A DNA stretch of 64,000 nt, taken from Streptomyces sp. NBC_01717. Lineage in GTDB: Bacteria; Actinomycetota; Actinomycetes; Streptomycetales; Streptomycetaceae. The notes under the pieces are model-generated. The model was not told the DNA's origin. It saw only the letters and a list, made by a program, of their open reading frames with translations, and did no database searches. The position numbers and the translations under genes are program-made. The stretch covers positions 5,890,001 to 5,954,000 of the forward strand of contig NZ_CP109178.1 in NCBI RefSeq assembly GCF_036248255.1. Reading direction: 5' to 3'. This document shows, in pieces, positions 31,570 to 57,607 of this stretch; the stretch's first letter is position 1; each line of letters opens with the position of its first letter.

Positions 31570-31578
31570 GATTCTGCG

Positions 31579-31652
31579 TGCGCCGCCAGGGACTCGAACC
31601 CCGGACCCGCTGATTAAGAGTCAGCTGCTCTAACCAACTGAGCTAGCGGCGC
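31579..31652 (-). tRNA. tRNA-Lys(CTT), copy 1
   Basis: A 74-base tRNA with acceptor GCGCCGC/GCGGCGC and discriminator A, D arm GCTC/GAGC, anticodon stem GCTGA/TCAGC around loop CTCTTAA (anticodon CTT), and T loop TTCGAGT. CCA is not encoded. The sequence is identical to copies at 39670 and 51072. A -10-like TAGAGT lies about 20 bases upstream on the minus strand. Confidence 0.97.
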
Positions 31653-39663: not shown

Positions 39664-39669
39664 TGTCTG

Positions 39670-39743
39670 TGCGCCGCCAGGGACTCGAACCCCGGACCCG
39701 CTGATTAAGAGTCAGCTGCTCTAACCAACTGAGCTAGCGGCGC
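39670..39743 (-). tRNA. tRNA-Lys(CTT), copy 2
   Basis: Identical in sequence to the copies at 31579 and 51072, including 8 bases of 5' flank. A -10 box TATTAT on the minus strand (39763-39758) lies 15 bases upstream of the 5' end. The terminator is at 39618-39663. Confidence 0.97.
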
Positions 39744-51065: not shown

Positions 51066-51071
51066 CGTCTG

Positions 51072-51145
51072 TGCGCCGCCAGGGACTCGAACCCCGGACC
51101 CGCTGATTAAGAGTCAGCTGCTCTAACCAACTGAGCTAGCGGCGC
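51072..51145 (-). tRNA. tRNA-Lys(CTT), copy 3
   Basis: Identical to the copies at 31579 and 39670. Its 5' ten bases (51136-51145) overlap the 3' end of the upstream primase-like gene, whose TAG stop lies in the acceptor/D-arm junction. The promoter must lie inside that gene; a -10-like TAAGGT lies about 22 bases upstream. Confidence 0.97.
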
Positions 51146-52049: not shown

Positions 52050-52391
52050 TCACGGTCTGGCGCCGCCCAGCAGGCTCCGGCCGAATTCGACCATCTTCTT
52101 CGCGTAGTCCTCGGTCCACTCCGCGCGCTCCGCGATGTCCGCGGTGGTCAGCCGGTCGAACCGGCGCGGGTCGGCCAGCTGGGCAGCGGCGATCGCCTGG
52201 AACTCGACCGCGCGGTCGGTCGCGGCGCGGAATGCCAGGGTCAGCTCGGTGGCGCGGTCCAGCATCTCCTTCGGGTCGTCCATCGACTCCAGGTCGAAGA
52301 AGTGCTCGGGATCGGCGACCGCCGCCGACGGCTCGAAGAGCAGGGGCGCGGGGCGCAGCCGCTGCCGCTCGTTCCGCTCGGGTTGTGCCAT
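52050..52391 (-). CDS. Conserved hypothetical Streptomyces protein
   Basis: Soluble, acidic protein of 113 residues. The sequence LFEPSAAVADPEHFFDLESM followed by DPKEMLDRATELTLAFRAAT is predicted to be mainly helical. The C terminus RFDRLTTADIAERAEWTEDY has HTH-like spacing but no strong signature. AAGGAGG lies 7 bases before the ATG at 52391, so it is a real gene. I do not recognise a family with a known function. Confidence 0.7.
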   Translation of the reverse strand: MAQPERNERQRLRPAPLLFEPSAAVADPEHFFDLESMDDPKEMLDRATELTLAFRAATDRAVEFQAIAAAQLADPRRFDRLTTADIAERAEWTEDYAKKMVEFGRSLLGGARP

Positions 52392-52631: not shown

Positions 52632-53966
52632 TCACGGCGCCCACCGCACCCGGTGTTCCGCGAGATGCGCCAGGACCGCGTGGTTCGCCTCCCAGCCGTC
52701 GGGGAACTTCACCGTGACACCCAGCTGGACCGGTTCCGTCGACGGATGTTCGTCCAGCAGGTCGGAGACGCCCTCGCGGCAGACCACGACGCAGGCATGG
52801 CGGTGCCGCGAGGCCAGGACGCACAGTCGGCCCGTCTCCAGGTGGAACGCCGTGGCGTCCGGGCGGCCGGACAGCGGGTGCAGGACCACCGTCACATCGA
52901 ATTCGCGGCCCTGGAGCCGGTTCGCCGTGTCCACCGCCACACCCGTCACACCGAGCTCCGCGAGCGCGGCCCGTACCGCCGCGGCCTGGTCCCGATGGGC
53001 GGTGCCGACCGCGACCCGGTCCGCCGTCACCGCAGCGGGCTCGGGGGAGCGCTCGCTCGTCGCCGCGCCGCCCCGGTCCAGCAGACGGCGCACCACCAGA
53101 GCCACCGCCCGCACCGCCTCCGGATCCGTACGCGGGGTGTGCCGGGCCGGAAGTTCGAGCAGGCCCCAGCCGGACTCCGCGGCCTCGTCCAGCACCCGGT
53201 CCGGGGCGGAGCCGTCCGACGCGACACCGAACGACAGCCGCCGGTCGCCGTGGTCCGTGCCGCTGCGGAACGGGGTGTACGGGTAGAACGCGTCCGAGAC
53301 CAGCGGAGCCGCCGACGCGGGCAGCCGCCACGACACCGGCAGCCGGTGCTGCGGCAACTCCGGGTTGTGCGCCAGCAGGGTGGAGACCGCGCTCGCCGAC
53401 GGGTCGTACGACAACCCCGCCCACTGGTCCGCGCCGACGATCGAGAACGGGTCCAGCTGGCCGGGATCGCCGACGAACAGCGCCCGTTCGAAGAGCCCGG
53501 CGACGGCCAGCAGCGCGTCCGAGCGCATCTGGTACGCCTCGTCGACGATCGCGTGCCCCCACGGCTCGACGTTCTTCACATGCGCCCACTTGGCGGCCGT
53601 CGAGATGACGACGTCAAGTCCGGCGAGGTCCGCCGCCTTTGCCGATTTCCGTACGTTGGCCAGGCCGTCCAGCACCTTGTCGTACGGGTCCGAGTCATTG
53701 CTGTGCAGCCGCCCGACCGGCAGCCCCGGGTCCTTCTCGGCCAGTCGCACCACCAGGTCGTCGACCTGGGCGTTGGTCTGCGCGACCACCATCAACGGGC
53801 GCCCGGCGGCCGCCAGTTCGAGTGCGGCGCGCACCACGAGCGTCGACTTGCCCGCGCCCGGCGGGGAGTCCACCACGATGCCGCGTGCCGTGCCGTGCAG
53901 CGTGTCGTCCAGGATCGCGGTGGTTGCCCGTCCCGCCGCCGCGCCCGGGTCGAATACGGCTGTCAC
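52632..53966 (-). CDS. SF1B (UPF1/Dna2-like) helicase of a split-Dna2 module
   Basis: ATPase of 444 residues. Walker A is DSPPGAGKST (about 33-42), Walker B AIVDEAYQM (about 139-147), motif III FVGDPGQLDP (164-173), then VSWRLPASAAPLVSDAFYPY, motif V VDTANRLQGREFDVTVVLHP and motif VI CVLASRHRHACVVV. This order is typical of UPF1-like SF1B helicases, which travel 5' to 3'. There is no nuclease domain in this polypeptide; a Cas4-like nuclease is encoded two genes upstream. Its GTG overlaps the stop of the middle gene (GTGA at 53963-53966), so it is translationally coupled. Confidence 0.85.
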   Translation of the reverse strand: MTAVFDPGAAAGRATTAILDDTLHGTARGIVVDSPPGAGKSTLVVRAALELAAAGRPLMVVAQTNAQVDDLVVRLAEKDPGLPVGRLHSNDSDPYDKVLDGLANVRKSAKAADLAGLDVVISTAAKWAHVKNVEPWGHAIVDEAYQMRSDALLAVAGLFERALFVGDPGQLDPFSIVGADQWAGLSYDPSASAVSTLLAHNPELPQHRLPVSWRLPASAAPLVSDAFYPYTPFRSGTDHGDRRLSFGVASDGSAPDRVLDEAAESGWGLLELPARHTPRTDPEAVRAVALVVRRLLDRGGAATSERSPEPAAVTADRVAVGTAHRDQAAAVRAALAELGVTGVAVDTANRLQGREFDVTVVLHPLSGRPDATAFHLETGRLCVLASRHRHACVVVCREGVSDLLDEHPSTEPVQLGVTVKFPDGWEANHAVLAHLAEHRVRWAP

Positions 53967-55570
53967 AGAAGGTCCTCCGCGGTCACGAGGTCGGGGTTCT
54001 CGGCGGCGGCGCCCGGCGGACCGCCGTGCGTCCAGGGGGTGTCCTCCGGGTCCGGCAGCTTCGGGCCGCCGCGCTGATCGTGCTCGAACAGCGTCCACGC
54101 GATCCGGTCGCCGGGCTCCGGCAGCGAACCCGGGGCCGGCTCCTTGCTCCGGCCCATCCGGTCGGTGATCCGCAGCACGAGCAGGGCCTCATCCGGTCCG
54201 GCGGCGTCCTCGGAGGCGTACTCCACGAACTCGGCGGTCTGCGGCCTGCCGTCCAGCGAGCGGTACACCTTCGTCCGCTCACCGAGATGTGGGCGCTCGT
54301 CCGTCCGGACCGTGACCAGCGGACGCGGCGATGGCCGCTTCGACTCGCTGTACGCCATCACCACCTCCGTCACCTCCCCGACGAACGCCTCGCCGGCCAG
54401 TCGCCGCCCCGCCAGCACCAGCGGATCGTCCAGCGCCTCCTGGGCCTCCAGCTGCGTCTGCGCCGTCTCCCGGGACGCCAGCTTCTGGGCTGCCGTCACC
54501 GCGTCGTCCCGCCGCGGCTGCGGCGGCTCCCCGGACCGCACCCGGTCCCGGTGGCCGGTGAACGACCAGCGGTCCCGGGTCCAGCGGTCCTCGGACCTGG
54601 ACCCGGGCGGCAGCTGCATCATCAGGTCCAGCCCCCGCCACACCGCATCCCAGGTGGGCCGCAGCACCCCGGCGAGCAGCGAACCGATCTCCCGTTCGGC
54701 CGCTGTCAGTTCGGCGAGCCGGGCGTCGGCCGCGAGCCCGTCCTCGGCCGCCGCGAGTGCCGTGCGCGCCCGGTCGTACTTCTCGATCGCTGGTGCGAGC
54801 AGCCGGTTGTCGAACGCCGGGTCCGTGGCCGGACCGGCCGGCGGGCACACCAGCTGGCCGCCGCCGTCCCGCTCCAGCTCGGCCCGGAGCGCGGCCTCCG
54901 CCCCGGACTCGCCCGCAGGAGGGTCGATCCAGGCGAGCAGGGCCCCCAGATGCTGGTCCTCCAGCGTGGACTGTCCGGTCGCCCAGTGCCGGTTCAGCAG
55001 GTCGGTCGCGGCGAGGAGCAGCGAGGAGCCCGGCACCCGGGCCCGCTCCCCGTAGTGCGTCAGCCAGCGGCCGAGCAGCGGGACACGGGCCGGGGCAGGG
55101 TACGGGGTGTCCGGATCGTCCTCGGCGGTGCGCCGGAACCGCATGGAACGGCCCAGCAGCCGTACGAAGTCGATACCTGCCCGGCTCGGCACGATCAACT
55201 GCGGCGCGTCCGTGCACAGTTCGACCTCGACCTTGACCTTCTTGCCGGTCTCGGGATCGGTCTCGTTGCGCTCGGCCGGCTCGACCACGTCCGCGTACGA
55301 CTCGATGTGCGGCAGGACCGCCTCGGCCAGGTCGGCGAGGAACGCGAACCGCAGGTCACGGTCGCGCGGCTGGGCCACGGTCAGCAGCCGCGGCGCGTCC
55401 CGGTCGGTTCCCACGAGCGCGCCGAGCGGGGCGCCCGCCTCACCGGCGGTGGTCAGCGGCACGAGGACGAGCGGCCGGCCGGTGAGATGGCGGTGCAGAA
55501 CGGTGGCCATCGGCTGCGCCCGCCCGCTCTCCACGGCCTCGAGCCGGGCCAGGGTGCTGATCAGCGACAT
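53963..55570 (-). CDS. Unknown 535-residue protein between nuclease and helicase
   Basis: Large soluble protein with no motif I can name. It begins MSLISTLARLEAVESGRAQP, has several acidic and Arg-rich stretches, and a helical central region (LAADARLAELTAAEREIGSL) that could form a coiled coil. A small hydrophobic, Cys-poor C-terminal half contains TVRTDERPHLGERTKVYRSL. No Walker, zinc or nuclease signature is visible. Its ends overlap both neighbours (10 bases with the nuclease gene and 4 with the helicase gene), so it is an integral component of the operon and probably bridges the two enzymes (inference). Confidence 0.8.
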   Translation of the reverse strand: MSLISTLARLEAVESGRAQPMATVLHRHLTGRPLVLVPLTTAGEAGAPLGALVGTDRDAPRLLTVAQPRDRDLRFAFLADLAEAVLPHIESYADVVEPAERNETDPETGKKVKVEVELCTDAPQLIVPSRAGIDFVRLLGRSMRFRRTAEDDPDTPYPAPARVPLLGRWLTHYGERARVPGSSLLLAATDLLNRHWATGQSTLEDQHLGALLAWIDPPAGESGAEAALRAELERDGGGQLVCPPAGPATDPAFDNRLLAPAIEKYDRARTALAAAEDGLAADARLAELTAAEREIGSLLAGVLRPTWDAVWRGLDLMMQLPPGSRSEDRWTRDRWSFTGHRDRVRSGEPPQPRRDDAVTAAQKLASRETAQTQLEAQEALDDPLVLAGRRLAGEAFVGEVTEVVMAYSESKRPSPRPLVTVRTDERPHLGERTKVYRSLDGRPQTAEFVEYASEDAAGPDEALLVLRITDRMGRSKEPAPGSLPEPGDRIAWTLFEHDQRGGPKLPDPEDTPWTHGGPPGAAAENPDLVTAEDLL

Positions 55571-56715
55571 ACCGTTGCGCCCTCCGGAGCCGCCGGGCCG
55601 GTCGGTCTTTCCAGCGCCTCCGCACGCAGCGCCGCCGCGCGGCGCAGGGCAGCGACCGCCGGATCCGCCGGGTCGCCCTCCTTGCCCGCAGCCGCGGCCA
55701 GCACCTCGGAGACCGTCGTCAGACCTCCGAGCTCGCCCCGGACGCTCCGGCCCAGGGCCTGCACCGCACCGGCCGAGCGTGCCTTGGCCCGGCAGTGGAA
55801 GGCCAGTTCGCAGGCGGCCAGGCACTCCGGTGCGTACGCCGCCGTGACCGATTCGACCGCGGCCGTCAGCTGCTGCGGCGAACACTCCGGGTCGAAGGTG
55901 GTGCCCTCGGGCAGGGCGGCCGCGATCTCCTCGATCCGGGTCAGCCGGGTCAGCTGACGGCGGGTGACCGCGCGCTGCTTGCGCACATCCACCACCGACG
56001 CCGTCGGCAGGTTGGAGAAGTCCTTCGGGCAGACCAGCAGCACCCGGTGGCCGACCTCTGCACCCTGTGTGACCGCCGCGATCCGCTCCAGCGCCAGGAC
56101 GTACACCGCGGACTGCCGGGCCGCCGCGCCGACCTTCGCCGCGTCCGCGGAACTGTCGATCATGGGGAACGACTTGATCTCCACAACCGTCCAGCGGCCG
56201 TCGGGGTGCACGACCACCGCGTCCGGCTCCAGATAGGCGGGCGAGCCCGCCACCTCCAGGGCCAGCATCGGATGGTCGAGCAGCGCCCAGCCGCCCGCCC
56301 CCGTCGCCTCCCGCAGCGCCAGCGCGGTACGGGCCGCGCGCCCCTCGGGACCGGCCGCCGTCAGATCCGGTACCAGGACCTCGCGCGGCGCCCCGCTGCC
56401 GCCGCCGAGCCGCTCGTACAGCAGCCGCATCAGCTCCGTACCGCCGTCGGCCTTGACCTTCGCCTCGAAGGCGTTGCCCCGCATGAACGCGAACTGCGAC
56501 TGGCCGAACGCGGCGGGGGAGCCGAGCGCTGTCGCCAGCGCGGCCTTGTCCACCCCGGCACCGTCCAGCAGGGCGCGCCGCTTGCAGCCGGGGTTCGCGG
56601 CGAGGGCGGCCAGCGCGCGGGCATCGAGCGGATGCGGGGCGACGGCCGGACCGCGCAGCTCAGCGAGCCGCTGCCGGAGCGCCGTCGTCTGCGGCGTCGC
56701 CCGATGCTGCGTCAT
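55561..56715 (-). CDS. PD-(D/E)XK nuclease with a Cas4/AddB-type [4Fe-4S] cysteine set
   Basis: Protein of 384 residues. The catalytic core reads YLEPDAVVVHPDGRWTVVEIKS: Asp165, Glu179, Lys181. Upstream GNAFEAKV (Glu84) is motif I, and downstream QSAVY (Gln201, Tyr205) is the RecB-family QhxxY motif. Cys44 in NPGCKRRAL plus Cys298, Cys302 and Cys308 in ECLAACELAFHC have the one-plus-three layout of Cas4, AddB and Dna2 iron-sulfur nucleases. The start at 56715 is uncertain: a GTG at 56760 or a TTG at 56790 would increase the overlap with the PAP2 gene. The downstream helicase supports a Dna2-like resection role. Confidence 0.85.
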   Translation of the reverse strand: MTQHRATPQTTALRQRLAELRGPAVAPHPLDARALAALAANPGCKRRALLDGAGVDKAALATALGSPAAFGQSQFAFMRGNAFEAKVKADGGTELMRLLYERLGGGSGAPREVLVPDLTAAGPEGRAARTALALREATGAGGWALLDHPMLALEVAGSPAYLEPDAVVVHPDGRWTVVEIKSFPMIDSSADAAKVGAAARQSAVYVLALERIAAVTQGAEVGHRVLLVCPKDFSNLPTASVVDVRKQRAVTRRQLTRLTRIEEIAAALPEGTTFDPECSPQQLTAAVESVTAAYAPECLAACELAFHCRAKARSAGAVQALGRSVRGELGGLTTVSEVLAAAAGKEGDPADPAVAALRRAAALRAEALERPTGPAAPEGATVCR

Positions 56716-57607
56716 CGGTGGAGTCTGCGGAGGAGGTCCGCTGGCCGGGGATTCGCTCACCCGCGGAAGTCTTGCATCCGGCACTGACAATCGGGGACCT
56801 CGTGGCCGGATCGACCGGTGCGAACCGGGCCCGTACCGCGGCCTTCACCCGGTCGGCGAGCCGTATGACCGATCCGGTCAGCAGCGCTCCGAGGCTCATC
56901 ACGGCAGCGCCCGCGACCGCGTCGAGGAAGTAGTGGTTGGCCGTGCCCATCACGACGATCGTGGTGACCAGCGGGTACATGACGCCCGCGGCGCGTACCA
57001 GCGGGTGCCGCGCGTGACGCCAGAGCAGGACGCCGCACCACAGCGCCCAGCCGACGTGCAGGCTCGGCATCGCGGCGTACTGGTTGGTCATCCAGCCCAG
57101 CCCGCGCGGCGCGCTCGCCTCGGTTCCCCACCAGCCGTACGAGCTGTACTGGGCCATCGTGTCGACGAAGCCGTGAGTGGCCTGCAGCAGCCGCGGTGGG
57201 CAGGTCGGCAGCAGCGCGAAGCCGACCAGGCCGAGCAGTGTGGAGGTCATCAACCAGGTGCGGGCGGTGCGGTACACGGCGGCGCGGCGCCGGTAGATCC
57301 AGATCAGGACCGCCGGGGTGACCAGGTAGTGCAGTGAGGCGTACGCGAAGTCGGCGGGTATGCCGATGGACGGGTGGGCGGTCATCAGCCGGTTGAGCGG
57401 GTGCTCGGCGTTGAGGAAGAGGGTCTTCTCCAGATGCAGTATCCGCAGCCCGTGGTCCACAGCGGTCGACACGTCGCTGCGGACCAGCAGCCGGCCCACC
57501 GAGTAGACCGCGTACACGACCGCGATCAGCGGCAGCTCGGCCCACCAGCGAGGCCGGTGGCTCGGCGCGGGCGCGGTGGCAAGCGGCATTCGGAAGCTCT
57601 CCATCAT
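56660..57607 (-). CDS. PAP2-family membrane phosphatase
   Basis: Integral membrane phosphatase of 315 residues with about six helices. The PAP2 signature is divided: KTLFLNAEHPL is a degenerate motif 1 region, MPSLHVGWALWCGV contains motif 2 (PSLH), and GTANHYFLDAVAGA is motif 3 with the His-x(4)-Asp pair. Streptomyces members of this subgroup (inositol phosphorylceramide synthase-like) often have this architecture, with a long soluble C-terminal tail of about 50 residues here. Start choice: ATG 57607, 57604 or 57589; the last has GGAG 9 bases upstream. The C-terminal tail overlaps the nuclease gene by 56 bases. Confidence 0.83.
   Translation of the reverse strand: MMESFRMPLATAPAPSHRPRWWAELPLIAVVYAVYSVGRLLVRSDVSTAVDHGLRILHLEKTLFLNAEHPLNRLMTAHPSIGIPADFAYASLHYLVTPAVLIWIYRRRAAVYRTARTWLMTSTLLGLVGFALLPTCPPRLLQATHGFVDTMAQYSSYGWWGTEASAPRGLGWMTNQYAAMPSLHVGWALWCGVLLWRHARHPLVRAAGVMYPLVTTIVVMGTANHYFLDAVAGAAVMSLGALLTGSVIRLADRVKAAVRARFAPVDPATRSPIVSAGCKTSAGERIPGQRTSSADSTDDAASGDAADDGAPAAAR

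Follow-up and report, generated by a model that had tools for sequence, protein, structure and literature searches.

N-B-H, a nuclease-bridge-helicase operon core to Streptomyces: a candidate DNA-end processing complex with relatives in DNA-break and defence neighbourhoods

Introduction

In eukaryotic Dna2 a single chain carries an iron-sulfur (Fe-S) PD-(D/E)XK nuclease and a superfamily 1B (SF1B) helicase, whose motor is preceded by a 1B domain. AddB also has an Fe-S-linked nuclease, and the motors of AddAB and AdnAB are of the UvrD type. Archaeal HerA-NurA is a motor-nuclease pair that works with Mre11-Rad50 (PMC5715905, PMC4351679), the counterpart of SbcCD. Here we describe a three-gene operon in a 64,000 nucleotide (nt) stretch of DNA, hereafter the window, that occupies positions 5890001-5954000 of the 10.2 Mb chromosome of Streptomyces sp. 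NBC_01717 (NZ_CP109178.1). We refer to its genes, all on the minus strand, by the working names N (nuclease), B (bridge protein) and H (helicase). An earlier note, made from the DNA letters alone, had proposed that they form a split Dna2-like operon. No description of an N-B-H operon was found among the titles and beginnings of abstracts listed by searches of an open-access library.

We propose, with a probability of roughly 0.6, that N-B-H forms one DNA-end processing complex that is core in Streptomyces and has elsewhere been recruited to DNA-break or defence neighbourhoods. The enzyme classes are already known; what is new is the three-chain make-up with B, a subunit of no known domain.

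Results

A predicted nuclease, a bridge protein and a helicase

N was taken to be a PD-(D/E)XK nuclease because of its motifs. The alignment of N comprises 162 rows, some genomes having entered by two routes, and in it the residues singled out by the earlier note (C44, D165, E179, K181, Q201/Y205, C298, C302 and C308) all stand where they were placed. The cysteines, D165, E179 and K181 are nearly invariant (Table 1), as are Y205 (161/162) and E84 (158/162). The two rows that lack D165 are a single protein of genome G291 entered twice, the missing residue probably being an alignment slip. N contains D...(D/E)xK, an upstream acidic residue and the Q...Y helix, and behind the nuclease core a Cx3Cx5C set that joins a distant cysteine; the textbook Fe-S spacing is CxxCx5C, from which the Cx3C of N is one residue off. 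Pfam PDDEXK_1 matched the N of the window under its cut-off (E 0.013) and gave a weak match in 3 of 18 N members (best E 0.009), Pfam Cas4 (PF01930) gave no match, and comparison of N with PDB sequences returned nothing relevant, the Dna2 nuclease not being matched. Judged on its motifs, N is a PD-(D/E)XK nuclease that probably carries an Fe-S cluster, and its membership of any named subfamily is unproven. The proposed label of a Cas4/AddB-type nuclease stands for the active-site motifs and the Fe-S-type cysteines, and is tentative for the subfamily, PDDEXK_1 being weak and the Cas4 profile marginal.

The reading of H as a UPF1-like SF1B helicase was borne out by Pfam AAA_11 (42.5 bits, cut-off 27) and AAA_12 (30, cut-off 27) and by motifs I, Ia, II, III, V and VI, which are kept in at least 95% of 37 rows. 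Its neighbours among PDB sequences are SMUBP-2, UPF1 and DNA2 chains. Moreover, the core of H aligned with the helicase end of TM0106-type proteins (TIGR03491 joined to a UPF1-like helicase), both by profile (P 1.8e-26) and by blastp. PADLOC returned weak matches to the helicase parts of MkoA/MkoC and others. Motif I lies only ~30 residues from the start of H, and therefore there is no room for a 1B domain of the UPF1 type.

The earlier note had found no known motif in the 535-residue middle protein, and database searches agree. Well-conserved stretches of B, in an alignment of 33 members that includes two very distant ones at 19-21%, include WATGQSxxED and PPAGPxTDPxFD. Searches of Pfam (over cut-off), NCBIfam, PADLOC and PDB sequences found no relative of B beyond its own orthologues. 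A GPAT_C match under the cut-off (E 0.002, 9/33 members) was judged to be chance. Two further identities were set aside. The notion that B supplies the 1B/stalk half absent from the helicase met with no Pfam or PDB match, and P was ~0.2 against TM0106-type proteins, although B may resemble that half in fold; that B is the RNase_H_2 part of TM0106-type proteins was likewise without sequence support.

The operon is core in Streptomyces

Of 527 confirmed relatives the best 80, all from named genomes, served as core loci. N is present in all 80, B in 78 and H in 76, and the loci without B (2) or without H (4) stop at a contig edge; therefore all three genes are present wherever the contig reaches. 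N was found in 31/41 relatives and in 50/296 genomes of the class (one of these, G348, being a 45-residue match), and within the genus in 27/28 genomes of the class sample and 24/25 of the relatives set. Absence of N from the one exception in the latter set (G010) was ruled out, as the assembly there has a run of 1546 N beside which B and H are still detected. B occurs in 12/296 genomes of the phylum, and every one of the 9 same-genus genomes listed is among them. Ratios of nonsynonymous to synonymous polymorphism (pN/pS) against 11 other Streptomyces loci were 0.19-0.36 for N, 0.16-0.36 for B and 0.08-0.24 for H. Thus, none of the three is a chance open reading frame (ORF) and all are under purifying selection, which is strongest on H.

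A quick tree built from 39 loci grouped the core copies of Streptomyces into one fully supported clade. Five second copies that were fetched and two copies on Streptomyces plasmids fell outside it, and five of these seven share a clade with loci of three other families, for which the program warns of long branches. From this placement the core operon looks vertical and the other copies more mobile. Taken together, these data settle the distribution that the earlier note had raised: in Streptomyces this is a core operon and not a patchy defence island, and N, B and H are kept together in the order N-B-H, both in the core loci and in a far lineage.

TIGR03491 was distributed otherwise. NCBIfam gave no TIGR03491 match for N or B, and the genome of the window is likewise without it. 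The family was over its cut-off in 30/118 genomes of the class and in 5/56 genomes with N or relatives of N. Within families f1, f9, f86 and f87 none of the 46 N-bearing genomes was over the cut-off (three short sub-threshold matches were seen), and N is missing from the six genomes of f86 and f87 that were seen to be TIGR03491-positive, save for one 45-residue match.

Far lineages and fusions

The far lineage, that of G291, keeps the order N-B-H with a B ~24% identical to that of the window type. Profiles without shared rows related the two for N (P 7e-27), B (4.5e-15, along the full protein) and H (2.5e-57). A second lineage has N as the front half of a chain of ~890 amino acids (aa), with H as the next gene. 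Here the N part (P 5e-8 to 2e-7, rows of L151 and L112 removed from the N profile) and H (9e-25) matched the window type, and the profiles of the G291 lineage alone, which hold 3-4 rows, gave no match to the fusions (N 0.07, B 0.62). A strong likeness between B and the latter half of the fusion (P 2e-21) proved to be inflated by a shared row, L151, as was that of N (5e-37). We call this half only positionally equivalent to B, because no homology is detectable without the shared rows.

A search with the fusion found 707 matching proteins, the best 120 of which are 729-925 aa long and come from carriers such as Nocardioides, Actinoplanes, Micromonospora and Pseudonocardia. Their active site (D146, D168 and K170, D...DxK) and a CxxCx5C set are kept in 119/119 rows, and the first cysteine in all 106 rows that reach that far. 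PADLOC assigned the fusion P0244 to 0 families. Near the end of the fusion, at residues 812-831 of P0248 (identical to P0244), a C-x11-H-x2-CC-x2-H pattern is kept in 118-119 of 119 rows; it is possibly a second metal site, one missing from the B of the window. In G243 and G504 H lies away from N-B (~36 and ~49 kb) and is yet retained.

Non-core copies lie among DNA-break and defence genes

We surveyed the neighbours of 37 loci and excluded L119 (a core copy) and L306 (a fragment of N only), leaving 35. A gene that we call X stands immediately before N in 16/35, a count from which X could have escaped notice at L157 and L305, which end close to N. X was present in 5/41 relatives, always adjoining an N. 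Beside X, an SbcD-like gene in divergent orientation was found in 8/16 X loci, accompanied in 7/8 by SbcC-like sequence, partly in fragments. The seven non-core copies of the tree (five second, two plasmid) all have X, with SbcCD-like neighbours in 5/7 and pPIWI-RE in 2/7. Wadjet jetABCD follows H in two loci, both on Streptomyces plasmids and probably reflecting one event, and in none of the other 6 SbcD loci. On these plasmids (L309:3343-19676 and L308) SbcC, SbcD, X, N, B, H, JetA, JetB, JetC and JetD are contiguous; the SbcCD part of L308 is annotated merely as small pieces. PDDEXK_1 and pPIWI-RE island genes lie beside two near-identical loci (L110:8226-10875 and L113:4133-6785), whose second-copy N-B-H has a degenerate N active site (E to L, K to R).

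Six loci have a DNA methyltransferase after H, 3/4 of the G291 lineage and 3/5 of the fusion lineage, the latter three together with a ResIII-type (DEAD/DEAH) helicase. On Rhodococcus plasmid pDF02 (L307:11935-20905) the run is an N-type fusion, H, DNA methyltransferase and DEAD/DEAH helicase, with the same in L301 and L302; this four-gene run looks like an unnamed restriction-modification-like operon. Elsewhere, N-B-H is followed by a 1528-aa protein (L303:11830-16416) whose last third contains a type III-like N6/N4 methyltransferase and whose first ~890 residues are unassigned, a helicase-less TIGR03491-type protein with RNase_H_2 and a weak PDDEXK_1 lies directly downstream of H in G291 (L112:3059-4753), and a Type ISP restriction enzyme adjoins a fusion operon in opposite orientation (L151:7950-10787). 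Besides this enzyme, few single genes could be named in the flanks of the remaining loci.

Homologues of X, SbcCD, JetABCD and methyltransferases, of the kinds tested, are absent from all 80 core loci over up to 17 kb. B was found in 3/72,556 plasmid records, among them one of 11.9 Mb that bears the label plasmid, and the fusion in 2, B in 0/50,697 phage records, and viral contigs held no relatives. PADLOC placed N and B in 0 families.

Layout of the operon in the window

That the three genes overlap, as first described, was upheld with unchanged coordinates (Table 1): N and B share 10 nt, B and H 4 nt. The same junctions dominate among relatives, where -10 was seen in 75/118 N-B pairs, -4 in 27/118, and -4 in 66/107 B-H pairs across called loci (some genomes being counted twice). 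An alternative start for N is GTG 56760, 15 codons upstream, which would give 399 aa; its nearest database homologue has this length and begins there.

Table 1. Features of the N-B-H locus in the window, with conservation among relatives
Feature	Coordinates	Strand	Description	Conservation
N	55561..56715	minus	PD-(D/E)XK-type nuclease, 384 aa (predicted)	
Cys44 codon of N	56584..56586	minus	first of four Fe-S-type cysteines	C 161/162, one gap
Asp165 codon of N	56221..56223	minus	PD of active site	D 160/162
Glu179-Ile180-Lys181 codons of N	56173..56181	minus	ExK of active site	E 157/162, K 159/162
Cys298-Cys302-Cys308 of N	55792..55824	minus	Cx3Cx5C	161, 162 and 162 of 162
B	53963..55570	minus	bridge protein, 535 aa, without known domain	
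H	52632..53966	minus	UPF1-like SF1 helicase, 444 aa, GTG start	
H motif I	53847..53873	minus	VDSPPGAGK	conserved motif
H motif II	53526..53543	minus	DEAYQM	conserved motif
H motif VI	52791..52817	minus	LASRHRHAC	conserved motif
PAP2_3 phosphatase gene	56660..57604	minus	upstream; overlaps N start by ~55 nt	75/80 core loci
S113	52050..52391	minus	113-aa protein downstream of H	70/80 core loci (some end before S113)

The PAP2_3 gene and S113 are neighbours of N-B-H whose membership of the operon is unproven. S113 has a ribosome-binding-site-like AAGGAGG ahead of its ATG, and a Pfam search gave no match. Past H the order is S113, a 256-aa ORF and tRNA-Lys. The latter is one of three tRNA-Lys(CTT) genes that the minus strand carries in a 20-kb span (31578-31652, 39669-39743 and 51071-51145), and lies just downstream of the operon neighbourhood. 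A simple scan found no promoter- or terminator-like site. SOS-box-like motifs (up to 3 mismatches) numbered 49 in the window against 28 expected, with none just upstream of PAP2/N, and are uninformative.

Discussion

We suggest that H, a UPF1/Dna2-like SF1 helicase, would pull single-stranded DNA, in the 5' to 3' direction by analogy with its family, and that N would cut the strand delivered by H, the predicted Fe-S cluster holding its fold or its grip on DNA. B would link N and H, and probably supplies the DNA-holding parts that are found ahead of the motor in Dna2 and UPF1 and are missing from H. The Streptomyces copy may then be a vertically inherited housekeeping factor that trims or degrades broken or incoming DNA, and the other copies a module recruited to neighbourhoods of defence or DNA-break genes, in many cases together with X and SbcCD-like genes. 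DNA ends or foreign DNA are the likely substrate, because relatives adjoin SbcCD, Wadjet, and methyltransferases with helicases. The idea that the two activities of Dna2 are recreated on separate chains with an added partner survives as a sound working model, less its assumption about N, which is not demonstrably of Cas4, AddB or Dna2 type by sequence. The suggested roles in DNA-end processing and in defence each find support, for different copies.

A more far-reaching version is tentative, and we give it rather less than an even chance. Here X-N-B-H with SbcCD would be a bacterial counterpart of Mre11-Rad50 plus Dna2 resection, in which SbcCD opens or trims the end and the split nuclease-helicase chews back. 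This module would move among actinobacteria as an effector of immunity, acting in some cases downstream of Wadjet cleavage or of DNA methylation marks. A pared-down N-B-H would have become fixed in Streptomyces as a housekeeping machine for DNA ends.

Several observations weigh against a conserved end-processing complex with a cutting N. The operon is dispensable at least once, since N is genuinely missing from G542, a 5.8 Mb genome of the same genus. Cutting, too, is dispensable in some copies, as the active site is broken in a few (E to L with K to R in two near-identical second copies, E to A in one). Moreover, the kinship of N with known nuclease families is marginal. Against Cas4 profiles D165, ExK and the cysteines fall in register with P of 4e-4 to 6e-3 depending on the rows; against TM0106-type profiles P runs from 2.4e-6, when the profile is enriched with fusion rows, to 0.23 with window-type and G291 rows; and against solo actinobacterial PDDEXK_1 proteins P is 0.06-0.1. 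Controls used shuffled, reversed and B profiles, and the best of 12 shuffles per comparison reached 0.021 (TM0106), 0.17 (Cas4) and 0.009 (solo PDDEXK_1). For B, profile comparison showed no relation to TM0106-type proteins (P ~0.2), and P against the second half of the fusion is 0.07-0.13 without the L151 and L112 rows. Lastly, the complementarity of N and TIGR03491 fits overlapping jobs but is confounded by ancestry, and outside f1, f9, f86 and f87 both occur together in 5/10 genomes.

Three other explanations were considered. N-B-H could be mainly an immune system against plasmids and phages, in Streptomyces included, with the core copy a very successful defence system. Such a role would suit relatives that adjoin jetABCD on two Streptomyces plasmids, pPIWI-RE genes (L110, L113), a Type ISP enzyme (L151) or, in six loci, DNA methyltransferases (three with a DEAD/DEAH helicase as well), and second copies that fall outside the core clade. 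The clade of the window, however, looks vertical, is syntenic and is near universal in Streptomyces, its 80 core loci are free of the X, SbcCD, Jet and methyltransferase homologues tested, PADLOC models fit neither N nor B, the phage records gave no match to B, and the viral contigs no relative. We consider this account unlikely, although it is the strongest of the three.

If N, B and H were merely co-transcribed, N might be a non-cutting sensor of DNA ends with a cysteine-held fold that serves the helicase. The N copies that have lost E179/K181 and retain all four cysteines are what such a sensor would predict, but Glu179 (157/162) and Lys181 (159/162) are otherwise kept and the fusion lineage preserves its D146, D168 and K170 in every row, making this improbable. 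Lowest in our estimation, by a little, is action on RNA or RNA-DNA hybrids, such as R-loop removal or RNA decay. H resembles SMUBP-2 and UPF1 as well as DNA2, and SMUBP-2 and UPF1 act on RNA or DNA; against this, most of the nameable neighbours of relatives work on DNA (SbcCD, DNA methyltransferases, Wadjet, restriction enzymes), and the Fe-S PD-(D/E)XK families AddB, Dna2 and Cas4 act on DNA.

Should the proposal of a DNA-end processing complex be correct, nearly all Streptomyces hold an uncharacterised helicase-nuclease besides what we take to be AdnAB. The linear chromosomes of Streptomyces break and rearrange often. The mobile relatives also suggest an unnamed effector module common to loci linked to SbcCD, Wadjet and methyltransferases, a candidate for deciding the fate of DNA after cleavage by such systems.

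Comparison with known systems

With respect to Wadjet, the core operon is without jetABCD, which stands beside two plasmid relatives only. HerA and NurA belong to motor and nuclease families other than those of H and N. In the text examined of a review of SMC (structural maintenance of chromosomes) immunity no N-B-H-like partner appears (PMC10586767). The UvrD-Cas4 and COG1205-Cas4 defence pairs also tie a Cas4-like nuclease to a helicase and to defence genes, but their helicase families differ and no B-like third partner appears in the portion of text covered (PMC5704561), nor does its main text mention Streptomyces, actinobacteria or TM0106. AddAB and AdnAB, like N-B-H, are helicase-nucleases for DNA ends, although H is of the UPF1 type. 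The genome of the window also encodes two adjacent large PDDEXK_1 proteins, which we presume to be AdnAB. The likeness to Dna2 is seen in H, which matches DNA2 chains in PDB (E 4.5e-6); unlike Dna2, nuclease and helicase are on separate genes, the activities being spread over two or three chains, and H has just ~30 residues before motif I. TM0106-type proteins have no detectable counterpart of B, and N is marginally similar to them. They share with N and H a nuclease in front and a helicase at the end, held in a single chain of ~1130-1435 aa in the actinobacteria fetched and on separate chains in N-B-H.

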